Source of the DNA: Bimuria novae-zelandiae CBS 107.79
Lineage: Eukaryota > Ascomycota > Dothideomycetes > Pleosporales > Didymosphaeriaceae
Assembly: GCA_010015655.1 (NCBI GenBank)
Contig: ML976672.1
Location: forward strand, 802,493 to 866,492
DNA: 64,000 nt
Direction of reading: 5' to 3'
A program made the position numbers and the translations under genes. Numbering within the stretch: position 1 is the first letter of the stretch; the number at the start of each line of letters is the position of its first letter. Of the stretch, positions 10,573 to 54,453 are shown piece by piece. The notes beneath the pieces were generated by a model. That model ran no database searches, had not been told where the DNA came from, and was given only the letters and a program-made list of their open reading frames with translations.

Positions 10573-11172
10573 NNNNNNNNNNNNNNNNNNNNNNNNNNNN
10601 NNNNNNNNNNNNNNNNNNNNNNNNNNNNNNNNNNNNNNNNNNNNNNNNNNNNNNNNNNNNNNNNNNNNNNNNNNNNNNNNNNNNNNNNNNNNNNNNNNNN
10701 NNNNNNNNNNNNNNNNNNNNNNNNNNNNNNNNNNNNNNNNNNNNNNNNNNNNNNNNNNNNNNNNNNNNNNNNNNNNNNNNNNNNNNNNNNNNNNNNNNNN
10801 NNNNNNNNNNNNNNNNNNNNNNNNNNNNNNNNNNNNNNNNNNNNNNNNNNNNNNNNNNNNNNNNNNNNNNNNNNNNNNNNNNNNNNNNNNNNNNNNNNNN
10901 NNNNNNNNNNNNNNNNNNNNNNNNNNNNNNNNNNNNNNNNNNNNNNNNNNNNNNNNNNNNNNNNNNNNNNNNNNNNNNNNNNNNNNNNNNNNNNNNNNNN
11001 NNNNNNNNNNNNNNNNNNNNNNNNNNNNNNNNNNNNNNNNNNNNNNNNNNNNNNNNNNNNNNNNNNNNNNNNNNNNNNNNNNNNNNNNNNNNNNNNNNNN
11101 NNNNNNNNNNNNNNNNNNNNNNNNNNNNNNNNNNNNNNNNNNNNNNNNNNNNNNNNNNNNNNNNNNNNNNNN
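10573..11172. other. Assembly gap (run of N)
   Basis: The sequence is undetermined here, so nothing can be said about its content. It lies inside the Fot1-like element and probably covers the C-terminal part of the transposase. Confidence 0.98.
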
Positions 11173-23165: not shown

Positions 23166-24459
23166 GTGCTCGGGGCGATGCATGAAGCAACGTCTTCCGA
23201 TATAGACCGCCATCGGCATGTCATAGCCGTGGACGACTGCCGTGTTAGGCTATACGCGTTTGGATCTTCAAGATATCGTACCCCTCACGCGGCAATGGTT
23301 CCAAGGTTGTTAGCAACACTTATGAATGTAGGCGTGCTCTTATACGCACTATTTTGCGCCATCAGGTTCGAGAAAAGCCTATTGTCATAAAGCTAAATGA
23401 CATATTTTTCTATTCAATAAGAAATTCTAAGTAAGGCACCATAACCACCTTCTCTGCACCATCTTTTACCAAATTCTCCATCTGTGTGATTGTTTCATTC
23501 AGCGTGAGTGGGCCCCTCGTTTTGCTTGTAAACGCCTTGATACCCGCACTGTAGCACCCCTCTGCACCATCTCCAATGGTTCCCGCTAAGGCGACAACTT
23601 GAGCACCATGGCGTTGCGCCCGGCGGGCAACCTCAGTCGTCATCTTGCCTTCGGTTGACTGTGAGTCCAGACTTCCTTCGGCAGTGATTACAAAATCCCA
23701 TTTCCTCTCGAAGACGCGATCGAACTCGAAGTACTCGTTGATAGCATCGCTCCGCGCCCGTAGCCCGGCTCCAAGCATCAAGAGGCCAGTTCCAAGACCT
23801 CCGCTAGCGCCACTCCCAGGAGCGTTTGAAATGTCTTTCTTTAGTACTGTCTGAGCCACGTGAGCCCATCGATCCAATGCTGCCACAAGCAAACCGACTT
23901 GTTCCGGAGTAGCACCCTTCTGTGGACCATAGACTTGCGCCACGCCTCTGGGTCCACACAGGACATTTTTGACGTTGCACACGGCCTCAATTTGGACTTT
24001 CTCGGCTGCATACGTCAGCTTTCATGGTACTCACGGGAAATATAGCACTTACCAGCATCTTTGCGCAGTCGCGAATGGATCCCGCAGCAACAGATCCTGC
24101 TCAAGCGCGAAAGTGTTCGGCCTCCATCTGCTCTGGGGAGCTCTTTCCCTTCAGCATCGAGCAGACGAACACCAAGAGCTTGTAGCATTCCTGCACCTCC
24201 ATCCGAAGTCCCCGAATCTCCGCATCCGATAATGATCTTGGAGCACCCTGCATCTAGTGCTTTCTTAATCAACTCGCCGACCCCGTATGTAGTGGTCATG
24301 GTTGGATCACGTAACTCTTTAGGTACTAGGCGGAGCCCGGCAGCAGCCGCCATGTCTAAAACGGCCGTTTTCTCCCGAATGAAGCTCAAGTGAGACTGCA
24401 CAGGCAAGCCAACGGGGCCAGTGACAGTCTCCTCTACGATAATACCATCATATGCCTTA

Positions 24460-26656
24460 AGTCGGGCACCCTAGTTTCCGACACCCCCCATTTTCCGACA
24501 CCCCGCCAAATTTCGCCGCTGCCACCACTCTACGTTGCGAATGTGCTCACAGCTTCATCAAATAATTTTGAAAAAGCATTAAAAAAATCGTATTTAAAGG
24601 ATTTTAATCGCTTTCTTTATCTACACTTAAATTACGATTAAGATACTATTATATTAGTTATTAATTCCGTGCTAAATATTGCACTAATAATTACTTTACT
24701 TCTTCCTTAGAGCCACTCTCTTCCTTTATAATAATAACCCCTTGCTTTACGCTTCTTACTTTACAAACACGTTAAATAGGCTCTTAATTAGTTTAAGAGA
24801 GAACTTCTGCAAGACTTACAAAGAGATTATTTAGATTAGTTATAACTTTATAGCGTTTTAGCGGGTTAGCTTACTCTACCTACTTATATAAGAAAGTAAT
24901 CTCACGGTCTTGCATAGTAACTATTATTAAGGTACAGTTAAACGCTATAGTAGTAAGCTAAACGCATTATCGTGTAGTTAGTAAGAAGTTCTTTTTAGAA
25001 AATAGCTTTATAACATCGCTACCGCGTTTTAGCGTCCTAATATCTATAGTAGAAGGGGGTGGTGTTAATGGCCGTTCGCGCACTACTACCTAGCGAGAAC
25101 CTAAGGGCTTCCTTACGCTCTTAGGGTATAAGCCTATTACCTTCCACCTAGATCGGATGCACTGCTCTCGAAGGCTAATTTTACGTACTTTTATATAAAA
25201 TTTAAGAAACTTAGCCTTCCTAAGCTTTATTTTATCTGTCTAAGCCATATATTCGCTAATAAAGCGCCGATACGCCGCCTTCAGACTTAAGAAATAGCCT
25301 AAATCTAAAGGCTAGAGTAGATATAAAGTATAAGCAAGGAAAAAGAGTAAGTAGATATTATTTAAGTAATATATAGTTATAAATTTGTCTAAAGTATAAC
25401 TACTATAGCTATTAACAATAAGTAACCGTGCCTTGGAGGGATTATTAGGCTTAGTCTATAGCAAAAACACCTTTTCTAGCCACTTAATAGCAATGTTATT
25501 ACTCGTCTATCCATTTTACAAAAAGGTAATATACTAGTCTAGGTTCTAAGCTAAAAACTCCTTCTTAAACCACTGCTCCTAGATACTCTTAGCCTTAAAG
25601 ATAATAAGGGGGTCTAGAGCGACGCCGAGCGCAGAGATATACTTTACTATAGAGGTCTAAGTGCAGGTATTTATTATCTTAACTAGTACGGCGTTTAGGC
25701 TCTCTTGCGAGGAGCCTATAATAAGCCTATTAATGCCTTAGCCCTCTATAATACCGCCCTTGTTAGTATTATACCTGCGCCGGGGGGGAATCTAGCTTAC
25801 TATTTTATACAGGTTAAATAAGTGTCTAATATTTTCTAGAGTAGCCTTATTTACGCGTTCCTAGCTAGTCTAGCAACCTAACTTTAACTTAATAGCTAGG
25901 TAGTATTATATAAAGTAACTAGTCTACTTCTTTCCTAGGTTCTTATAGTTACCTTATTACTTAAAAATAATAATTATAATAGCTTATACTTACGCGTGCA
26001 TTAGCGCATAACTAAAGGCCTCTTACTAAAGAATTTATTTCTTTAAAAGCTCTTCTTAAATAGTTATAAGCTATTATTTACTATTGTAAGCGTACTAATA
26101 GGGTTAGGTACTATTAAAGTAGCCGCGAAGAGTGTTACGTAGGACCCTATGTTAAGTAGTAGTAGTAGCTAAAGCGACCCTAGATTTAAGGTCTACAAGC
26201 GTATTCTAGATATCTTCTTTTATATATCTAGCTATTTAAAGGTAGCTGTTGATACGGCAATAGGCTGCTGGATCAAGACTTCGTTGCAACGATGTGGTAT
26301 TGATTTGATTCTTAATTGCAGATCTATTGTGGTGGGCTGCTGTGAGAGGTATTTATCAAGCGTGGTTTGTTCCCTGCTAGCCCGATCAGGACTAGCGCAA
26401 CAAACCACAGGCAAACTACGTAACAAGCCGCAGGCAAACTGCGCAACAAGCCGCAGGCAAACTGCATAGCGGTGAAAGCCGTAGCAGTGTTGCGCAGGTT
26501 TGATACCAACAGTAGCAAAAATAGTGCAAAAAATATTTTTAAAATTAGCGAAGAATTAAGTTATTTAAAGTTAATATTCGGTCGTGGTGCATGGTGGGGG
26601 GCGAGGTTGCGGGGCTGTCGGAAACTATGGGGTGTCGGAAACTAGGGTGCCCGACT
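24460..26656 (-). mobile_element. Fot1/pogo-like transposon inside glycerate kinase, heavily RIP-mutated
   Basis: The termini are inverted repeats beginning AGTCGGGCACCCTAGTTTCC (28 bp identical at both ends), followed at each end by a second copy of the TTTCCGACA motif. TA flanks both sides (itself within TTAA). The interior is TA-rich and full of stops. On the minus strand around 25510-25390, residues WLEKVF and RLLIVNSYSSYTLDKF align with the pogo/Fot1 block that holds the second catalytic Asp, with Asn in its place. Further on a QPLD-type segment is still traceable. The element is therefore a dead class II transposon. Confidence 0.85.
26397..26465. repeat. Three tandem 23-bp units
   Basis: Three consecutive units of the form GCAACAAGCCGCAGGCAAAC plus 3 bases, differing at a few positions, within the Fot1-like element near its transposase 5' side. 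The surrounding 270 bp are much less TA-rich than the rest of the element. Confidence 0.75.
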
Positions 26657-27258
26657 TAACCAAAGCACGAGCCAAGCCTTCTCCTCCATCATGTAGTGGA
26701 AGTTTACGAATGATGGCAGACTGTTCGTCCAATACCCTCTGGCAACCGGCTTCAATTGCATCTGCAACATGTTCTAGAGGGAGGCTCTCCTTGAAACCAG
26801 ACGGGGCAATCAAGATTCTCAATGGATGGCCGCCTGTAATATTCCATGTCGGGACTGATATGGGCCTTGACTCTGAAAGAATGACTTCATTAACTTGCTG
26901 TAGGGGCAAACTCAATGTCTTCCAGGTGTGAAGTTTCGGTCGCTGTGTAGCCACGGTATTTAGTACAGCAGTTAGGGTGCAGACGCCAACGCTCGCGGGA
27001 AGCATATCGTGTAGACTTTGTAATAGCAAACTACACAGGAAATAAATAAAGAGTAAGGTAAGTGGAGCAGATAAGCTTGCGAAGAAGCGAGCGTATTGTT
27101 GAAGCGAGTGTTGATAATAGGGAATTAGCGAGCGATAACATGGTGAGCCCGGAACCGCGACACTTCTTTATATATCAAAAAGATGGTTTCTCCATGATCG
27201 GTGGCCATACACCAAGGACTGCTATCATCTACACAGCCTGAGAATCTTGATTCTAACG

Positions 27259-31844: not shown

Positions 31845-32225
31845 TGTCAGATTGGAAGGGTAATCTGATAAGATAAAAAGATGATAATTGATTAAGATAA
31901 ATTGAGGTATGAATTGTGTGTGCTAAATTCTCTGTGTCTAAGAGGTCTAGGACTCTGCCTTTTATCTTTAGGTTGCCTGCCTAGATATCCCTTGCTTTAT
32001 CCCTTGCTTTATCCTTACTTTATTCCTTGCGTTATTCCTTGCGCGTTGAGCGAGGGCGGAATGCGAGGGCGGAATATAAGGGCAGAATATAAGGGCGTAA
32101 GTGCGCTAGCCTCCTTGCATATACAAAGGACTATGTGGTTAGACACACCCCCTTAGCATAGGCAGAATGTACGGGCGTAGGTGCGCCAGCCTCCTTGCAG
32201 ATGCAAAGGGCCATGTAATTGGACA
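31845..32225 (-). repeat. LTR of nested Copia element (3' LTR in its own direction)
   Basis: Pairs with 37101-37481. It contains internal short repeats of GAGGGCGGAAT/AAGGGCGTAAG type. Preceded by CCTTT (31840-31844). Confidence 0.9.
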
Positions 32226-37100: not shown

Positions 37101-37481
37101 TGTTAGATTAGAAGGGTAATCTAATAAGATAAAAAGATAATAATTAATTAAGATAAATTAAGGTATAAATTATGTGTGCTAAATTCTCTATGTCTAAGAG
37201 GTCTAGAACTTTGCCTTTTATCTTTAGGTTACCTGCCTAGATATCCCTTACTTTATCCCTTACTTTATTCTTGCTTTATTCCTTGCGTTATTCCTTGCGC
37301 GTTAAGCGAGGGCGGAATGCGAGGGCAGAATGCAAGGGCGGAATGCAAGGGCGTAAGTGCGCCAGCCTCCTTGCATATGCAAAGGACCATGTGGTCGGAC
37401 ACACCCCCTTAGCATAGGCGGAATGTACGGGCGTAGGTGCGCCAGCCTCCTTGCAGATGCAAAGGGCCATGTAATCGGACA
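37101..37481 (-). repeat. LTR of nested Copia element (5' LTR in its own direction)
   Basis: Pairs with 31845-32225, with many transition differences. Followed by CCTTT (37482-37486). Confidence 0.9.
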
Positions 37482-39044: not shown

Positions 39045-40858
39045 ATGCAATTACCGGGGAGACTCTACCATACAGCCCCACAAGATGATGATAGTTCCTT
39101 CTATACTTCACACGAGCTGCCCAGATTCTCATTCGAGGGCCATGATAGACGACTTATCAGCACTGAGCGATTGTTTCATAACTGGAGGTGTCCAGACGAG
39201 GAGAACGCATATAAAAATGACCTTAACGCGCTAGACGACAGTATGAAAATGGAAAAGGACATTATCGTAAGTTGCTGTATCCCCACTATTGCGCAAAGCT
39301 CATGGATAGCCTAGATCACTTGGGATGGCTCACACGACCCTGCGAACCCACTCAACTGAACACAGTCTCGGAAGTGGGTTGTTACATTACTTGTGTCGAT
39401 GTTCACGTTTATTAGTCCTTTCTCGTCAACGATGGTTACGCCAGCTCTGCCTATCATCGCGGATGATTTTGATATCCCAGAGGGGTTCATGCAGCAGCTA
39501 GTTATGACCATTTTTTTGCTGGGTTATGCGCAGGGTCCTTTTTTGCTTGCACCTTTAAGCGAAATCTATGGTAGGGTGGCCATCTTGCAGTACGCCAACT
39601 TGATATATCTCGTCTTCAACACAGCATGTAGTTTTGCTAAGATAAAGGAGCAAATGCTTGCCTTCCGCTTCGTGAGTGGAATTGGTGGAGCAGCACCGCA
39701 AGCAGTAGGTTATTCCTCATTTGGATTGTACCAATGGATGTTTTCTGAAGCACGTACTTACCAACCCTCAGCTGTGCAGCGGTGTCCTGGCCGACACCTG
39801 GCGCAAAGAAGAACGCGGCAAAGGACAGACTATCTACGGTATGCTTACTTGGATTAGTCCGTGTGTGGCACCCATATGTAGCGCATACATCTCACGGGTG
39901 GTGAGTTGGCGATGGATCTTCTAGACCACCTCGATCTTCACACTTCTTGTTCAGATTACGGGACTATTCTTCCTCCGCGAAACATTCGCCCCTGCCATCT
40001 TAGCGAAAAAAAGCCTAGATCGTCAGGAAGGCGCTCACAGGTATTCGCAAAAGGGTTGTCGTACGAACAGAATACGAGACTAGCGACCGGTTCAGTAAGA
40101 TCTTACGGAAGAGGTTGATTCTCCCCTTCGTCATGATGTTCACGCATCCGGCGACACAGGTTCCATCCATCATCAGGGCGTACTTATACGGAGTTATGTA
40201 CTTAATGCTGTCGACGTTTCCGCTCGTCTTCGAGGAAGTATATGACATGGATGCGGGTCCAGCATCCCTCAATTACCTTTCGATGTGTATCGGCTTCATG
40301 ATCGGACTGCAGATATCGCACCCGCTAATGGACGGCGTGAGTCTCCCTTACAATCGCTTTTGTCTGGGTACGGTAATTCAGAGTTTCTAACGATCAATAT
40401 AGCTCTACGCCCGTTTGAAGATATATTACGGTCTCGAGGAGGGTCTTCCGGAATTTCGCGTCCCACCCATGCTCATCGCCGGCATACTCTGTCCCATTGG
40501 ACTTTTCATCTACGCTTGGACGGCACAAGCACGAGTACATTGGATTGCACCGAACATTGGCTGTGGAATAGTTGCGATTGGAATGATTGTTGGCTTCCAA
40601 TGCAGCCAGGCTTATACAACGGACGCTTATGAGGCAAAGCACGCTGCATCAGCGGCAGCCGTCGGTGCGTTCCTGCGTACGATGTGTGGCTTCAGCTTCC
40701 CGCTGTTCTCAGTGCAGGTGTACGAGAAGTTCGGTCTTGGCTGGGGAAATAGTTTGCTCGCTTTCTTGACATTAGGAATAGCCTTGTTGAGCCCCGTGTT
40801 GCTGTGGTTCTACGGGGCAAAGCTGAGGGTCATGAGCACAAAAGGATTGGATCAATAG
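39045..40858 (+). pseudogene. Decayed MFS transporter (DHA1 type)
   Basis: Pieces in order: a cytoplasmic start (MQLPGRLYHTAPQDDD), a likely intron from 39269, ITWDGSHDPANPLN, membrane helices (SMFTFISPFSSTMVTPALPI), the A-motif region PLSEIYGRVAIL, and after a GTGAGT...ATAG intron (40337-40402) the last helices to 40858. TGA at 39357-39359 stands where Trp is expected after NPLN, and TAG at 39922-39924 where Trp is expected after WRWIF. Frame changes are needed near 39750 and 40000. The family exports drugs or metabolites; this copy cannot encode a full protein. It is 1.85 kb from the end of the peptide precursor gene. Confidence 0.75.
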
Positions 40859-41113: not shown

Positions 41114-42254
41114 TCATATCAGTTCTGCCTCATCCACATGTTCGCCTCGCCTGCTAGCCAGGTACACTCTTCCACTCTCATATACCCCTAGGTATAATCC
41201 GCTGCCGACAAACGTCCACACACCCCTTAGGGCCCCTCCTCTCCATAAACCTTTGACGCCTTTCTCATGCACTATTTCTTGCCCTATTTTCCATGCACTC
41301 TTTTTACCCTTCAGTTCTGGGCTTACTAATGGATTCAAGTTCCGAACGGCGCTCTTTGCTGTAGCTTTGGAAGACTGGACCGTCTTTCCAAACGCATCGA
41401 CCAAGCTATCTGGGCCCGCTCTGGTACTCTTTTGCTGTGACGAGACTTCATGAACCGCATCATCCACCGCTGACAGCATTATTCGCGTTTTAACGACATC
41501 TATCGGCGTAGTGATGATCGCCGCTACTGTTCCGGCTGCTCCGGCGCTCACAGCTGTGATCATTCCACTCTCAAATATTGTCCCGGTCCTTTTGTTTGTG
41601 CGATCACGATGGTCTTTAATCATCTCTTTCATCTTCTCAAACATGGGAAATTGCAGAGCTGTAAAAGGAAGATTCCGTCCCGCTAGCGCTGTATATCCTC
41701 TCCATAGCGCTAACGGGTTTGATTTAAATTTTGCTAGTGTCTGCATGGTTGCATTTGTAGATGATCCCGCAGATACCATCTGGGCATTTTGCTTGATGAC
41801 CTCAGCAGGTGTGAGGATCGCGCATGAGACCAATTCCGCAATTGACGAGGCTCCTGAATGTACAATGGGTGTTGGGACTAGACCGTTGGGGTGCGACGAT
41901 GTAGGCGGATTTATGTGATTGAAAAATGCCTTTGTCCGCTCATATGTGGTGAAGAACGCTCCTGCTGATTTCTGTCAGCCGTGGTCCTTTATCAATATAA
42001 AAGTTTCATGCGCTAATGGGTGGTGGGTTATTACAAGAAGGTAACGTTGCTATGATGACGCTTCCCACGCCTTGGTAAACACCACGGAATAACGCCGGAT
42101 TCGGTTTTTGCGTCGTAGCATTGGTATATAATTTGGCGTAGTTGGGTGACTGTATCCGCGTTTTCAAAGTATCAAGAGGGTATACGAGCAGGTCGACAGT
42201 GAACGCTGCAACTGCGCCTGCGAGCAGAATATCACTGTTGCTATTACCGGACAT
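41114..42254 (-). CDS. Mitochondrial carrier, S-adenosylmethionine carrier-like (SLC25A26/Pet8 type)
   Basis: Two exons (42254-42035 and 41964-41114) give 356 residues. The three carrier repeats each keep the P-x-[DE]-x-x-[KR] signature: YPLDTLKTR, TPAEVIKQ and TPIDVVKTR. The Glu-containing second signature and the short first repeat resemble the SAM carrier branch, which brings S-adenosylmethionine into mitochondria; the substrate is an inference. The protein is longer than Pet8 because of an insertion of about 60 residues in the third repeat (around DDAVHEVSSQQ to SPELKGKK). The donor GTAATA is weak, but the splice restores PSSGAFFTTYE. It may be unrelated to the nearby peptide cluster. Confidence 0.8.
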
Positions 42255-42711: not shown

Positions 42712-43394
42712 TTACTTGTCATCACCAGAAGGTAGGATCTGAGTTGCCCTGTACCAGGGAGCGAATTCCGAGCGTTTTACCTCTGGGGCCTTGATGTCAC
42801 GTTTGTCATCGCTGGCCGGCAATATGTTTGTTGCTACTCACGTTAGATAAGCCTTTCGCTATCCGGAGTGATAGACAAACCTCTGTACCAAGGAGCGAAT
42901 TCAGTGCGCTTCTCCTCGGGAGCTTCTACATCGCGCTTGTCATCGCTGACTGGTAAAATATTCGTTGCTGACCATGTCAGGTTTGCATTGAGTATCTACA
43001 GTGAGAGACAAACCTCTGTACCACGGAGCAAACTCGGTGCGCTTCTCCTCGGGGGCCTCAACATCACGCTTGTCATCGCTCGCAGGGAGGATGTTAGTGG
43101 CTAGACCGCATTAGGCACACGTCAAACAACGGGATGATAAACAAACCTCTGTACCATGGTGCAAACTCGGTGCGCTTCTCCTCTGGGGCCTCTACGTCAC
43201 GCTTGTCGTCGCTCGCAGGGAGGATGTTGGTGGCTAGGCCGCATTAGACACACTTCAAATAACCGGGCAATAGACAAACCTCTGTACCATGGTGCAAACT
43301 CTGTCCGTTTGACGACCGCTTCGTTAGCGACGGGTGCAGCAGCTCCAAAGTTGGAGAGGAGCGCTAGAGCGCTGACAACTTCAACGAAACGCAT
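42712..43394 (-). CDS. Secreted Kex2-processed repeat precursor (candidate dikaritin RiPP precursor), five copies
   Basis: Five exons (43394-43280, 43233-43147, 43100-43014, 42967-42881, 42833-42712) sum to 498 nt, exactly 166 codons, giving 165 residues. A signal peptide (MRFVEVVSALALLSNFGAAA) is followed by PVANEAVVKR and then five copies of TEFAPWYRATNILPASDD or close variants (copy 4 has PVS, copy 5 reads SEFAPWYRATQILPSGDD). Each copy is preceded by Lys-Arg. Spacers DVEAPEE (three) or DIKAPEV (one), also bounded by Lys-Arg, separate the copies. Kex2 cleavage would release 18- and 7-residue peptides. Four introns of 46-47 nt (GTTTGT donors; CTAAT, CTGAC or CTAAC branch sites) each fall at the same place, within the Ala codon after WYR. 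Copy 5 has none. A UstYa-family gene lies head to head. Confidence 0.85.
42750..43310 (-). repeat. Tandem 133-134 bp DNA repeats of the precursor gene
   Basis: Each unit is an 87-nt exon plus a 46-47 nt intron. Exon text is strongly conserved between units. Introns 1 and 2 resemble each other and introns 3 and 4 have diverged. Confidence 0.85.
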
Positions 43395-44738
43395 TCTTTT
43401 GACTGGAGGACGAGAAGCTGGTGAGAAGTAAGAGAGGGGATAGGTACGAGGGGATGCCGGGAGAGATTTGAAAGTAGCAATTTATATATTTTCAGATGGG
43501 CGGGACCGGCGGTAAAGGTCCGCCATCACATACGTCTGATCGACAATGCGACGACTTTCAGCTTGCATTAGTGGTCACATTAGATAACGGAACAGATCAG
43601 TTGATCTCCCTCGTTGCCTTCATCACTTCCATGGTTTATGCAGGTGCTCACCGGTATACCCTTTGGGCTCACTATCGCAGGGAATCACGGCAGTTAACCT
43701 TCAAATCTCGGTCAATGTAACACTGTCAAGGGTAATTGATATCACGCCGGATAGATAAGAAGCTAGTGGAAGTCTTCCAAATAGATTGTCCACCGATTGT
43801 AACGGTTGAGCGGTCCGACACTGAAGCAGCCCCTTAGCTCGCAACTGGAAAGAGGCAAACCAAGCTTTGGAAATCGGCAGAAACAGCGACGTTCATCGAG
43901 TAGAGCAGTATAGTTCGGCTTTCTACGTGCAATATGTCGTAAGCATGCGAAGAGATGTCGTTACCGGTCGCTGTGGGGCTTTTGGCCCCCCTCGCTGTTG
44001 TGGTACGTACCTCGAATGTCACTGGCTGGCTTCACCCGAGAAATTGTATGCAGTACACTAGAGAGCTTCCTCAAACTTGAAAGTCGCACCAGGCCTCCAT
44101 GAAACAAACCCGTCAGTAGAGCACTTCTGCGTTTTGCCCGCATTTGACTTGATTGAGAGCTTCCTCATAGATAGCGGAAGTCTGTGAGATCGTCATCAAA
44201 GCGGTATATCCCACCTTTACCCCTCCTTGTCTTCGGGTGAACCCAATCCTTCTAAATGATGGTCGTCGCACTATTTGCGAGCTTTACGATAGACTAACAG
44301 CAATTCGACTAATTAGGCAGGTAACCTATACGTGCTTACTACGTATACGTGCGAGAAGCTTAAACAGGATTCGTTTACTCGCTTAGGAAGGTATGCCACC
44401 TTAGCATACCTAACACCTCGTACACAACAGTGATCGAGAATGTAATCGAAGGTGGAGCGAACCGGAAGCTTGACCGAACTTGGCATTGACGCCCCGTCTG
44501 CATGCATATTAGGCCTTGCAATGACGCGTCTTCAGCATGCCAGCTTATCTAGAAAGGTGTGATAGAGGAGTACTGGACGCTCGATGATGTAGCATTGCCT
44601 AGCTACGGTGATTGGGTCCCAGAACAGTGCGGATATCACCGCACTCGACCCGCCCACGACCACTTCCAACTGTTGACCGTGAAGTGGATATTTTCGACAC
44701 CACGATTCTTCCCGCACAAACTACAATTTCACTCTATA
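43395..44738. promoter_or_regulatory. Shared upstream region of the precursor and UstYa-family genes
   Basis: The two genes start in opposite directions from this 1.34-kb stretch, so common regulation is likely. No gene and no specific operator is recognised in it. Confidence 0.45.
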
Positions 44739-45842
44739 ATGGCTTGGTTACAGAGGGTAGAATACAAGCCATTGACCGCACACGCCGGTCGCGACTCCAC
44801 CTCAGAATCTGATGAAGACGAGACGAAAGGTTTCATCAGTGGGGCTCCCACAAAGGGAAGCAGGCAGTTTTTAATAAGCCAAAGAATGCTCATACTGGTA
44901 GCCGCGGCCAACTTCGTTGCCCTCGCCGTCTCAATCAGTCTTTTTGGGGGGTGGTTCTATGCCAACTACATCGTGCGCAACGCGGCCCTGCAGCGGGTTT
45001 CAGGCTACAGCCCAATATACGACCGATATACCGTTGACTTCGAAGACGTGGTCATTAATGGGACGTTCTTCCCACCGAAAGAAGGTGGCAGTCTCATAAG
45101 GCACCAGCCTAATCCCGAAGACGACAAGACGTGGGAGGAGTGGGAGTTGACGCGTGTATACCCAGTTACTCGCGAGGAGCTGACCAAGATGGGGAAGGAC
45201 TATACGACGGTAGCTAAGCTGGAAGACAAAGATTGGGGCTTGGGCGACAATGCGTATGCCGCAATTTTCGACGTGTACCATCAGCTTCACTGCTTGAACT
45301 CGGTACGGAAGGTGGTGTACGGCGGGTACTGTAAGTCACTGTCAAGGGGCTGGGTCGAATAGTAACCAGACTGACACTTTGTGACGCTCAGACAACATGA
45401 GTCAGGCTAGAGCAGACAAGGTCATGCAACGCGAGCTGCACATGAATCACTGCTTCGACATCTTGCTCCAGACCATCCAGTGCTCGGGTAATCTAGACAT
45501 GATTCCACTCGTGTGGATGTACACCCAGGAGTACCCTTTCGCGGACATGTAAGTCGTCTTCTCGCATGCGTTGGATGAGCAATCTACTTACGATGACTTG
45601 CAGGTCCATCAACAAGAAATGCCACAACTTTGCACAAGTTCACCGACTGGCGCAGAGAGAACACGATCGATATGGACAAGTACGTGGAGGTGATGAAGCA
45701 GCCTGAGGGGAATAAGCCGGGCATAAAGCAGCTGCCGGCTGCGGACAAGTATTATGAGTATTGGGGATACGATAACCCGAACCACAAGCCGGTCTCTGAA
45801 GGAGGACTTGGGCTTCCCTTGGAGCAGGACTCAAACTTGTAG
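44739..45842 (+). CDS. UstYa-family (DUF3328) peptide-modifying oxidase, apparent C-terminal frameshift
   Basis: Exons 44739-45330, 45392-45548 and 45604 onward (GTAAGT donors, CTCAG and TGCAG acceptors). An acidic cytoplasmic N-terminus is followed by one membrane helix (about residues 50-73, ILVAAANFVALAVSISLFGG). The lumenal domain carries the two family motifs HQLHC (181-185) and HMNHC (214-218), which are essential in UstYa-type enzymes that cyclise peptide cores through aromatic residues in dikaritin pathways. In exon 3 the reading runs MSINKKCHNF, and the expected continuation (KFTDWRRENTIDMDKY...) lies in the next frame, as if one base was inserted at about 45632. As read, the protein ends in 24 unrelated residues after HNF; the other frame runs to 45842. 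Sequencing error, real truncation or an inactive allele are all possible. Confidence 0.85.
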
Positions 45843-46245: not shown

Positions 46246-48881
46246 ATGGGACTCCAAATGAAATATGCGCTGCTGATCGCCATCGCTGTGCTGGTGCTCC
46301 TGCCAGCAAGGGCGCATGCTTTTGGCGCAGGCAACATCGCGTGAGCTGACTATCAACACAAGACCCCGGCTATCGCTGATGGATGGCACAGATCTATTTC
46401 CGCAGTCGAAGGAAAAAACTGGCGCCATGGAGATATTGAAGACATGTTGGCGACCGTTGCGTGCCTGAAAGGTCACAAGTGGAAGTCTATGATGATCAAG
46501 GTACATACGTCTACCAGTGGCCAGGCGCATCGACTAATGTGAATGCAGCGCGTGTATTTTGGGAACTGGCTTCGCGACTACTCACAGGTATAACCCTTTT
46601 TGATTGCTGAAGGGTGAAGCTAAGAAAAACAGGCTGTAGATACTGCGACGCTGGCCAAAGTTCAAGTGAGTCGCATCAGCAGATGCCGTATTTCCGAATA
46701 CTAATGTGCGCCAAGGCCGACACGATCCGCGTTCTTGTTTGGATCCTTTCTTTCATGTCTTTTGGATATGCGACGGGCGAATTCGAGGTCACCTCGGAGC
46801 GACTTGGTGTTTACAGGCCGGAAGAGCACATCGACAATCCAAAAGACTATGCCGACAACCAGGACGCCAGGAAGTTTGATCCTCGCTTGCGAGGACCTGT
46901 CACAGATGCAGAGCTCGCTGTTGATCCGGAGACCGGAATGAAGAACTACATTGCGAACGAAAGGGGTGGGTGGGCGACGTCTGCGGGCTACATCAAGTTC
47001 TCCTTCGCCCGAGCCATCCACTTTGGACGCATGTACACAAACGGACCTAGCGGAGAAAGAGGATCAGAAGCGAACCTTTGTGAAGCTCTTCGATGTCTTG
47101 GACAGGGACTCCATTGCCTGGAGGATTTCGGTGCTCACACGAACTACACCGAGCTCGCGCTAAGAGAATTGGGTTACTCGAATGTGTTCCCGCATACGGG
47201 CGCTCAGACGCAGATGAATCTTCATGGGAAGCACGTATTTCCACTCGTGACGGGAACTTTTGGCGGGGTTGATTTCTTTCATAGTGTCCTCGGAGAAGCT
47301 ACGGACCACATCACCCAGTCCGAGGTTGATGAAGTGAATACGGCATTGTCAGACGCATTGACAAGCAACACAAAGGGCGGCGGAAGCAGCTGCTCGGCCC
47401 TTACTGACGTGCTCGGAAAGGTGCCTGGGACTAGCGGGTTGATCCAGGAAGCTCATGCTCTCCAGGCTGCGTCTGACGCACAAGCTGCCGCCAATGCAGG
47501 GCACGGGTATCGAAGCGGAGGGCACGACGACTACAGCAGCTCTCGAGCTGGCGGACTTGGTCAACATCAAGGCGCTCCACCAACTTTCGATGCACCACCG
47601 GGGTCCGTTGGCGGGCCTCCAGGACCCAACATACCAGGCACAAACACCGACCCAGCTACCATCATTCCCAAGATCTACCCAATCTTGGAGTTCCGAGACA
47701 AGGTAGTCAGGAACATCTCTGCTATCATCGAGAAGATCCCTGGCCTGGAGAAGCTGATCGAGACCATCACGGAGCGGGTAACACTTTTTGTGCTGTCGCT
47801 GTTGGCGCCCTTCGTCATGCCCATCATCAAGACGGCCTCGCAGTCCCTGAAGCAAGGCTCCTCCACGGTTATCGATTCTGCAGCAAAGCATCAGTTTGAA
47901 GTGTGGACCAACCCTCATTCCTCGGATCCTACGCATTCGATGCTTTCCAAGGACCACTTCTCGAATGTGTTGAACGCACCCGCTGGCCAGATCGCAGTGG
48001 CCATCCTGCAGTTTGTGGCGCCGCGCGTATTATACGCGTTCGACCATACCGATGTGCCTGTCGATCAAGTCCTCAATGACTGCATGCAAGTGTTCCACCA
48101 CCCTACGATGCGCGATCGCAACAGCGAGATCCAGAGGAACATGTTCTCCGTGGTGGAGAAGTGGGTACATGGCTACCGCGGCCAAGACCTGAATCATGTT
48201 TTGAGCTCCGATAGCGTCCGAGCAGGCAAGAATCACAGTGGCAGCAACGATCACTCGCACGGTCAGGGTCACGGCGCCGCAGGGGTGTCTTCTTTCTCTT
48301 CCCACGGCCACGGCGGCGGATCCCACGCTGGTGGACAGCAGCCATCGCATTCGGGCGGCTATGGTCACGCATCGTCACACGCGGGCGGCTCCAGTGGCGG
48401 TGCAGGAGGGCTCCTTGGTAGTCTTGCTGGGAATCTTCCAGGCGGCCTAGGCAATAAGATCAATCCCGCGCTCAACATGTTCAGCGGCAAGCGCGAAGGC
48501 CCCGGCGATTTTGATGCCTCAACACCCCACTATGATCAGCCGTACCAGCCGTCCCCATCTCCTCAACCCACACACGACTGGGGAAGCTTCCAACCGTATC
48601 AGTCATCGTACGCGGGTGGTCAGAGCGGCGCACCCGAATACAATGCGCCTGCGCCTGCTGGAGGAGCTGACTGGGGGCACCAAGGACAATATGCGGATGG
48701 ACATGGTGCTGAACCTGCTTACACGGTGCCGACAGCGTATCAGCAGGGATATGAGAACTACGACCAGAGCGGTGGGTACGGGCAGCAGCAGCAGCAGGGT
48801 GGATACGGAGGGTATGGACAGGGACAGTCGGAGGGCGATGGAAGACAATGGGGTGGTGGTGGCGGCAACAGCATGTGGTAG
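46246..48881 (+). CDS. het-c: Het-C family protein
   Basis: Five exons (46246-46340, 46392-46500, 46549-46587, 46633-46665, 46716-48881) give 813 residues in frame. A signal peptide (MGLQMKYALLIAIAVLVLLP...HAFGAGN) opens the protein. The family core follows: EGKNWRHGDIED, KRVYFGNWLRDYSQAVD, GYATGEFEVTSERLGVYRPE, and GLHCLEDFGAHTNYTEL, which includes the His/Asp/Glu set seen in phospholipase-C-like folds. A long Gly/Ser/His-, then Gln/Tyr/Gly-rich tail begins near residue 560. In Neurospora, het-c alleles cause heterokaryon incompatibility; in other fungi the gene is not always allelically active. The two tiny exons 3 and 4 match the conserved core without gaps. Confidence 0.92.
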
Positions 48882-52582: not shown

Positions 52583-54453
52583 TCACACAATCTTAAAAAC
52601 CTCCATGCTAGGATGCAGTCCATCAAGCTCGGCCATGAGCCTCAGAACACTGCCATCGCCGACTAGTGCCCACATCGCAGTGTCTGTGCCGCTCTTTTCA
52701 ACCGACCTGAAAATCAACGGCTGATCTAGCGCATCGGCGATTACGATCGCGTCCCCTGGCTTCGCAGTGCCCAGAGATATGCCGAAGCGGCCTGCTTGCG
52801 TCAAGAATAGCGTGTGTCGAGTCCGGAAAAGGAGCATAGAGACAAAGCAATTGAAGTGGTTGAGTATATCCGCTGCTGAAGCCTCATAGACTGCCTTGTC
52901 GCCGCCCTCAACTGCTTCGGCCGATTCCTTATGGGTCACTTGCCCAAATACGAGGTTGTGCAACAATTCAGTCGCACCGCCATCGTCCCACTTCCAGTCC
53001 TGATCCTTCAAAAACCGGTCAAACATGTTCAGAATCGCCAATGTGGAATCTTTCGTCGTATCGCCCAGAAGGTGCGTGAGTTGCACTGGCTGGAGTCTAG
53101 TCCCATACAACTGCTATGCCTGGCCATTAAACAAACATACATCCCGCACAAATGGCTTCACCAGCTCCAACAGCTGCACTCGATTTATACTCGAAGTACC
53201 GTCATTGCGTAGAATATGCGCGAGCCTGGGTATCTCCAAGCTAGTCAAAACCACGGAATCTGGTTTGTGGCCCAATAGCTCCAGGATGTGCTAACGCGCA
53301 TCATACTTGGGATACTCGGAGCACCTCCGTTCTTTGAGCTGCGGTCCGCCGGACCAGTCCGGTAGAGTTACTGTGTTCAACGGTGCGCGGTTGAGCTTGG
53401 AGATACGCGCCAGCTCTGGAACCCATGAAGGAAGCACGTCCGAAGGTTCCACCTATGCCTTCTCAGAGTCCGCGAGCGCGCTTAGAAAGAGTATCTGGAA
53501 GTCTCCTTGACTGAGCGCCCACCAAGTCGTCTCCGTATACACCTGCGCAGCTGATTTCTTTTAGTTAATAGTAGGGAGGGTTAGTCTTGCTGTCTCAGGG
53601 CTTTTCCGTTTCAGTATGCCGTAGAGAGCGTAGATCTTGTCCTGGGGGAGGTAGCATTTCCCGTCGAGGGTGTACTGGAGGATGCTCGAGAGTTTCCAGT
53701 GCTCCATGCCGGGCCAGTTGCCCATGGATAGGCGGAGCAGTTGTAGTCGCGCGAGGGAAACTGCGCGCGAGACGAATGATTGTGAGGTCATGAGGGGCAG
53801 GGTGCCGGAGCGGGTGAGGAGGAGGATGTCGTTGTGCGTGGGGACGACGACTTCTTGTAAGGTCCACATGCGTTCGTGCCAGGGGTAGAATTGGAAGTCC
53901 CGCATTACAGAAACTTTTAAGGAAGTCAGCTAAGAAGACAACTGCTCATTTACCAAGTGGACGACTTACTCTCTGCGGCAAGTTCCTCACTCTTTTCGGT
54001 CACATCTTGTCCAGCGTCTCTGCTTCCGTCTAGAATCCGTCTCAACACAAGCACCGCATCTTCTGTAAACCCCGTCATCCATATTAGCACCTTAGTGCAA
54101 TTCTCATAAATCTCGTCCATCCTCGCTAGGTTAACATTCTTGTCTTCGTCAGAGCTCTGATTGACGCATATTTGGTCCAACCAGATGGTAACCGAGCCTT
54201 CACGCTTCCGCAGACACCGCAGGATATCGCTGCAATTCCTCGTCACTTTGATAGGCGCTCCATTGCAGTACGCCTCGCTATCGAAAGGCTGATTATCCTA
54301 TGTGTACGATATAGCTGCGTAGGTAGGCGGCTGGTCGTAGCTGGCTTCTTCTAAAGTGAATCTACGTGCATCGCTGCTGTTCTCCGCGGGATACAGATGT
54401 AGAACTCGGAAGAGGTTTGGGCCTGAGAGTGGGAGGTAGTCGAACTGCTTCAT
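52583..54453 (-). pseudogene. HET-domain gene with several nonsense codons
   Basis: From the ATG at 54453 the frame reads MKQFDYLPLS and EEASYDQPPTYAAISYT, then TAG (54300-54298) where the invariant Trp of the HET signature SYTWGD is expected, and on to VTIWLDQICVNQ, the second HET signature. A GTAAGT intron starts near 53970. The middle part has RDFQFYPWHERMWTLQEVV, and the tail (53110-52583) has LTQAGRFGISLGTAKPGDAIVI, the usual HET C-terminal block. Further in-frame stops occur, for example TAG at 53455-53453. HET proteins control non-self recognition; this copy looks inactivated by point changes with little rearrangement. Confidence 0.75.

Follow-up and report, generated by a model that had tools for sequence, protein, structure and literature searches.

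The genome of the dothideomycete Bimuria novae-zelandiae CBS 107.79 encodes, within the 64,000 nucleotides analysed here (the window; contig ML976672.1, positions 802,493 to 866,492), a repeat precursor whose gene lies head to head with a gene of the UstYa (DUF3328) family. We consider it likely that this locus specifies a UstYa-linked ribosomally synthesized and post-translationally modified peptide (RiPP) with WYRATNI as its core, and that it belongs to an often single-core peptide family of the Pleosporomycetidae. Of greater interest than the locus itself is what is seen beyond the window, namely a conserved, often single-core peptide family that is tied to a clade of UstYa proteins. Because many of the relatives show one core only, the repeat is a feature of the lineage; an earlier note on this DNA, made from the window alone, overlooked both the single-core relatives and an interruption of the UstYa frame.

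The core is delimited by comparison with relatives. A search with the window precursor as a single sequence recovered five proteins with three copies each, namely PMIN03_007071 of Paraphaeosphaeria minitans (78% identity over 65% of the query), CC80DRAFT_594887 of Byssothecium circinans and three jgi or ena proteins. A profile search that also included a second precursor of the same genome (the C42 precursor, described below), in which scoring was confined to the 7996 candidates that had the most words in common with the query, gave 60 matches. Twenty-two of these were excluded from the counts that follow, 21 of them of the PQWYDITYID kind or fragments and the last, P0150, cut at its intron; P0150 reads TEFAPWYRGLS, which is what window exon 1 gives when read on into its intron, and the two therefore probably share an intron site. 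The other 38 match WYRATNI in six or more of its letters, and in fact all 38 hold all seven, so that the tyrosine expected in the core of dikaritins, or ustiloxin-type ribosomal peptides (ust-RiPS), is present in every relative as well as in all five window copies.

The residues in front of the heptapeptide are far less constant. Counted on the first-ranked copy of each of the 38 relatives, position -4 holds V in 34 cases, E in three and P in one, position -3 holds Y in 35 with F in the remaining three, and A, S or P stands at position -1; the FAP of the window is mostly replaced by VYTA, VYRA, VYQA and similar sequences. FAPWY, which had been proposed as the modified core, thereby finds no support, as the residues before WYRATNI vary while WYRATNI itself is kept in 38 of 38. 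Further upstream, [ML]PTP[ED][EQ]F occurs in 33 of the 38 and a dibasic pair within nine residues of the core in 36; the PTPEEF spacer is missing from P0001 (P. minitans), P0002, P0003, P0124, P0151 and the window. Downstream, the relatives continue with loose sequence up to an acidic stretch.

Most of the family carries the core once: three copies are found in five relatives, two in two and one in 31, and 26 of these 31 end no more than eight residues past the core, 23 of them being 65-67 aa long. Precursors that stop right after a single core (26 of 38) misfit a repeat polymer, and together with the UstYa linkage they make it highly improbable that the window gene encodes a structural or surface repeat protein with no small-molecule product, on the model of Rep1, whose repeats are likewise cleaved by Kex2 (Umemura 2020, PMC7329392, as far as the available text goes). 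The named hosts of WYRATNI are Paraphaeosphaeria, Byssothecium, Setomelanomma, Clathrospora, Pyrenophora, Mytilinidion and Lophium; the lineages of six host species comprise four Pleosporales and two Mytilinidiales, both orders of the Pleosporomycetidae, and Pyrenophora is a further member of the Pleosporales. Both named multi-core hosts are Massarineae. No single-core paralogue was seen in the B. novae-zelandiae genome, where a search with P0138 matched the window locus only, and viral contigs held no relative of P0138 or of the UstYa homologue P0006. The core and flanking peptide words of the family were not found in a search of the main texts of papers in a full-text collection.

The second line of evidence is the company that the precursor keeps. 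In P. minitans the UstYa homologue PMIN03_007070 (79% identity over 98%) and the precursor PMIN03_007071 have adjacent locus tags and contigs of equal size. When the 60 precursor matches were compared with the 100 UstYa matches listed, six pairs shared their source and an equal-sized longest contig (P0001/P0006, P0138/P0024, P0139/P0028, P0140/P0055, P0145/P0026 and P0160/P0090, the last from Setomelanomma), as against a mean of 0.22 and a maximum of two pairs in 1000 control comparisons with contig sizes shifted by 1-500 bases either way. The two genes must be close together in four of the six, because these contigs span only 4.3 to 12.7 kb; each of the six precursors has WYRATNI, and five are single-copy. 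The head-to-head arrangement of repeat precursor and UstYa/DUF3328 gene that the earlier note had described is borne out, and the two genes stay paired in several relatives. A quick tree was built from 89 rows (the window sequence and 88 of the 100 matches, those shorter than 195 aa, P0090 among them, being left out). In it, the window UstYa, P0006, P0024, P0026, P0028 and P0055 all fall within one 41-row set with a support of 97. The tree therefore contains one broad set, with no tight clustering of the co-location label.

A rival possibility is that the precursor yields a signal peptide, of a pheromone-like or developmental kind, that is processed by Kex2 and secreted but stays linear and unmodified, the neighbouring UstYa protein not acting on it. 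We regard such a peptide as quite unlikely, given the UstYa homologues on an equal-sized contig of the same source in six relatives, the adjacent tags of P. minitans, and the absence from the 165-aa precursor of PYG[LM]P[IV]G, the motif at the peptide end of alpha pheromones in Pleosporales, as it is given in the available part of Le Marquer 2019 (PMC6339444). A signal peptide would nonetheless fit the strong conservation of the core and the single-core precursors, as well as the separate contigs of the two Clathrospora genes; moreover, a DUF3328 gene is reported among the 15 closest for 22% of 7878 KEX2-processed repeat proteins (KEPs), so that most are without one (Umemura 2020, PMC7329392, available text).

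The precursor gene itself is predicted to have five exons on the minus strand, from 43394 to 42712 (window coordinates), and its product is 165 aa long:

43280..43394, minus strand, exon 1: signal-peptide-like start MRFVEVVSALALLSNFGAAAP (by eye), VANEAVVKR and the half-core TEFAPWYR
43234..43279, minus strand, intron 1: 46 bp, within core 1
43147..43233, minus strand, exon 2: 87 nt, symmetrical, phase 1-1, encoding ATNILPASDDKRDVEAPEEKRTEFAPWYR
43101..43146, minus strand, intron 2: 46 bp, within core 2
43014..43100, minus strand, exon 3: 87 nt, unit as in exon 2
42968..43013, minus strand, intron 3: 46 bp, within core 3
42881..42967, minus strand, exon 4: 87 nt, unit as in exon 2 save one A to V change
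42834..42880, minus strand, intron 4: 47 bp, within core 4
42712..42833, minus strand, exon 5: ATNILPASDDKRDIKAPEVKRSEFAPWYRATQILPSGDDK and the stop codon, with a core copy uninterrupted by an intron

All four introns are of the GT..AG type and in phase 1, and they split cores 1-4 between WYR and ATN (TAC AGA G|gt...ag|CC or CA), so that four of the five cores carry an intron and core 5 is unsplit. Retention of an intron would break the frame, because neither 46 nor 47 is divisible by three. Tandem Repeats Finder reports a 133-bp DNA unit here (score 503), which corresponds to exon plus intron. In the literature on introns in repeat precursors we found no case of one intron per repeat, the gene structure of gigA being outside the scope of that search.

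As in dikaritin and ust-RiPS precursors, the product has a secretory signal, judged by eye, and cores that lie between Kex2 sites; with its five copies it fits the definition of a KEP (a signal peptide and highly repeated, Kex2-separated sequences), whereas the single-core relatives stand outside that definition (Umemura 2020; Le Marquer 2019). The spacers between the cores read KR-DVEAPEE-KR, the last one DIKAPEV. Five copies bounded by Lys-Arg had been described; there are indeed five Kex2-bounded copies of 18 codons each, of which three are exactly TEFAPWYRATNILPASDD, while copy 3 has PVSDD in place of PASDD and copy 5 reads SEFAPWYRATQILPSGDD, with a lone K rather than KR before the stop. 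WYRATNI is present in four of the five. Ungapped pairwise comparison gives 75-92% identity among the exon units and 35-80% among the introns, and across the ten pairs of 18-codon cores the proportions of synonymous and nonsynonymous differences (pS and pN) are 0.835 and 0.066, with a pN/pS of 0.079. The copies are old and their peptide has been held near constant; this is a coding sequence under constraint and no chance repeat.

The divergent gene and the region that it shares with the precursor gene are laid out as follows:

43395..44738, no strand: intergenic region of both genes, 1344 bp
44739..45330, plus strand, UstYa exon 1: ATG at 44739, hydrophobic stretch, first motif HQLHC; PF11807, expectation value (E) 2.2e-18
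45392..45548, plus strand, UstYa exon 2: second motif HMNHC; PF11807, E 8.3e-10
45604..45706, plus strand, UstYa exon 3 in the frame that continues exon 2: conserved SINKKCHNF, then non-conserved residues and a stop at 45706
45606..45842, plus strand, UstYa exon 3 in another frame, out of step with exons 1 and 2: its final 68 residues correspond to the C-terminus conserved in relatives with an intact gene

The description of a divergent gene with two HxxHC motifs and a membrane helix holds, with HQLHC and HMNHC, the PF11807 matches and one hydrophobic stretch seen by eye. A UstYa protein with both motifs is thus encoded beside the precursor, 1344 bp away; with 53 PF11807 matches in the 77.4-Mb genome, the chance that one lies no more than 1.35 kb from any given point is about 0.2%. 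In a model of the P. minitans homologue (predicted local distance difference test, pLDDT, 73.9) a helix spans residues 48-78, and two further predicted helices, 178-193 and 210-228, carry the motifs. H181, H184, C185, H217 and C218 (P. minitans numbering) are invariant in an alignment of 34 sequences chosen from the 100 UstYa matches listed, while 90% or more of them retain H214. UstY enzymes are said in a 2025 paper to use a dicopper site (PMC12186524, available text). Compared with the Protein Data Bank, the model gave no structural match at E 0.001 or better and the sequence gave no match at E up to 1.

The gene does not run to 45842 in a single open frame. Exon 3 opens with SINKKCHNF, which corresponds to P. 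minitans residues 251-259, and from residue 261 on the match switches frame, with 97% identity across 68 residues. Alternative splice models that do reach 45842 were rejected, since each drops conserved sequence (the longest drops KKCHNF). The UstYa frame is therefore incomplete in the window assembly and intact in P. minitans. If the disruption is real, the pathway could be dead in this strain and the precursor a leftover, as the division of conserved exon 3 residues between two frames and the intact copies of the relatives would suggest. We consider this rather unlikely: because the out-of-frame stretch keeps such high identity, the break is either very recent or a sequence error, which explains it equally well, and the precursor repeats are intact and under constraint.

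Under the preferred reading, a UstYa-linked WYRATNI RiPP, the precursor would enter the secretory pathway, where Kex2 is expected to cut after the KR pairs that delimit the cores, freeing 18-residue peptides such as TEFAPWYRATNILPASDD and, along with them, the short acidic spacers. WYRATNI would then be oxidised by the UstYa-type membrane enzyme of the divergent gene, the likeliest link being one between the tyrosine side chain and the isoleucine five residues on, by analogy with the Tyr-Ile linkages of ustiloxin and phomopsin, with tryptophan as the alternative site. The 18-mer of the window also occurs in P. minitans; its calculated [M+2H]2+ is 1033.9945 for the linear form, 1032.9867 after loss of 2H and 1031.9789 after loss of 4H. 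In the lineage of the window, the core would have multiplied together with the intron inside it, as symmetrical exons of 87 nt; because the internal exons all have this length and the same phase, copies could be gained, lost or skipped in frame.

Several points weigh against this reading and the family that it implies. The interrupted frame may leave the enzyme inactive in this strain, and the fifth window copy reads WYRATQI. Co-location was inferred from equal-sized contigs rather than from DNA. In Clathrospora elynae the precursor P0144 (contig of 50,315) and the UstYa homologue P0015 (contig of 131,752) lie apart on different contigs, and for Byssothecium, Mytilinidion, Lophium and Pyrenophora no UstYa protein on an equal-sized contig was found among the 100 matches listed. 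On the whole tree the co-location label requires five changes against a shuffled mean of 5.9, and 53 of 500 shuffles were as low. The homologue searches require shared words of five residues and are thereby biased towards exact WYRATNI; words of the spacer were also present in the query rows P0004 and P0005, so that a spacer-bearing protein with another core could have become a candidate, and none appeared among the profile-search matches listed. Of the 31 single-copy records, five (P0129, P0131, P0132, P0146 and P0160) continue further past the core; the tail of P0132 holds the start of a second copy, and the other four perhaps run into introns. Lastly, P0120, one of the 26 that end after the core, has an extra diverged copy, WYRPVQ, which leaves 25 records as plain one-core precursors.

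Among known systems, the ustiloxin and phomopsin dikaritins (UstYa/UstYb type) are alike in their signal peptide, in Kex2-bounded cores with tyrosine and isoleucine, and in a nearby UstYa protein with two HxxHC motifs. They differ in their YxIx core, in which tyrosine and isoleucine are spaced by two, whereas the spacing in WYRATNI is five and single-core relatives exist; the YxIx (EDYxI) core of this subfamily is found neither in the five window copies nor in the relatives of the precursor. No tyrosinase, cytochrome P450, methyltransferase or peptidase was detected by a Pfam scan at E 0.01 of 50 window open reading frames (ORFs), that is, 49 frames from stop to stop of at least 110 aa with overlaps removed plus the UstYa exon-2 frame, a scan that short or intron-split genes could escape; the genome has 32 tyrosinase matches, all of them on contigs other than that of the window. 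The epichloecyclin (GigA) and victorin precursors are likewise of the Kex2 type and multi-core, and their cores presumably differ from WYRATNI. Asperipin-2a shares with the window a single UstYa protein (just one DUF3328 gene, Umemura 2020, PMC7329392, available text) beside a repeat precursor, and differs in its core, which the earlier note gives as FYYTGY, as against WYRATNI. Epichloecyclins are said to carry a Tyr-Ile linkage (Ford 2022, PMC9233826, available text). Tyrosine is reported in 65.6% of the repeated sequences of DUF3328-linked KEPs as compared with 38.2% of the others (Umemura 2020), and the conserved motifs in the main text of section 10 of Le Marquer 2019 (PMC6339444) do not include WYRATNI.

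Ustiloxins, phomopsins and victorin are described as toxins (Ford 2022, PMC9233826), and four dikaritin precursor genes of Venturia are reported to peak in mid-late infection (PMC9632046; both in their available text), which raises the question whether the product is a toxin directed at a host or at competitors in the manner of victorin or ustiloxin. This appears unlikely: no tyrosinase or other typical tailoring family was seen among the ORFs scanned, and WYRATNI recurs in named fungi that belong to two orders, whereas most KEPs are reported to be unique at least at the genus level (Umemura 2020, PMC7329392, available text). Because WYRATNI hardly varies between species, its product probably addresses a single conserved target or receptor, unlike a fast-changing toxin. 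It is possible, albeit doubtful, that WYRATNI is the core of a conserved, UstYa-modified peptide signal of the Pleosporomycetidae, a one-core RiPP hormone and not a repeat toxin, the dose of which was raised in some Massarineae by tandem duplication of an exon with its intron within the core.

If the hormone reading holds, fungal UstYa genes for which no repeat precursor is known could serve such single-core peptides. Single-core forms would be missed by mining for repeats, the usual way in which UstYa-linked peptides are sought. The family also bears on the question of non-repeated precursors raised by a 2025 lichen study, the available text of which describes UstYa-type clusters without repeated precursors and names a single core peptide as one possibility (PMC12048977). 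The conservation of WYRATNI makes its function testable.

UstYa-linked repeats are an ordinary kind of locus in this fungus. PF11807 matches 53 places in the genome (exons counted singly), and a fixed scan of 20 regions, each 9.9 kb long and chosen around UstYa matches, found repeats with dibasic sites in six of the 20:

L015: WYDITYID (the C42 precursor)
L016: GVPLGFKINKR
L017: TYAPLVYTGGLKR
L020: APHHKGKGG, of the di-histidine kind (APHHKG)
L022: EGFSKIIYKR
L024: GLFPVSYKKDL

There are thus several such loci, and the one in the window is unusual in that its core is conserved and that it has single-core relatives. The C42 precursor (L014/L015, G000:C42:361399-361725 and about) lies between two UstYa genes and repeats (P/A)QWYDITYIDK six times, with one phase-1 intron in copy 4 directly after WY; 13 relatives of the same type apparently continue into that intron, reading QWYG or QFYG and then other residues (in protein letters, not DNA). 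It resembles the window precursor in being a repeat precursor beside UstYa, in the pattern WYxxTxI and in the phase-1 intron after WY, and differs in its leader and spacers, with an E of only 4e-4 between the two. Equal-scoring matches of UstYa (C149/C184) and of tyrosinase (C162/C170) suggest duplicated contigs in the assembly.

The Pfam scan also identified several neighbours of the peptide locus, the last two of them near to it, and Zn2Cys6 and weak bZIP matches were likewise among its results:

39360-40855: pieces of a major facilitator superfamily transporter
41117-41974: mitochondrial carrier
46611-48878, plus strand: Het-C
53953-54297, minus strand: HET-domain piece

Elsewhere in the window, pieces of a glycerate kinase domain at 26628-27167 and 23413-24470 on the minus strand are about 2.2 kb apart, and the gene may be interrupted. 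A run of 600 N occupies positions 10573-11172. In an ORF-poor stretch, the tandem unit TATTCCTTGCTT, followed by repeats of AGGGCGGAAT, occurs at 31986-32097 and again, 5.26 kb away, at 37242-37353, and these paired tandems are perhaps the ends of a repeated element.

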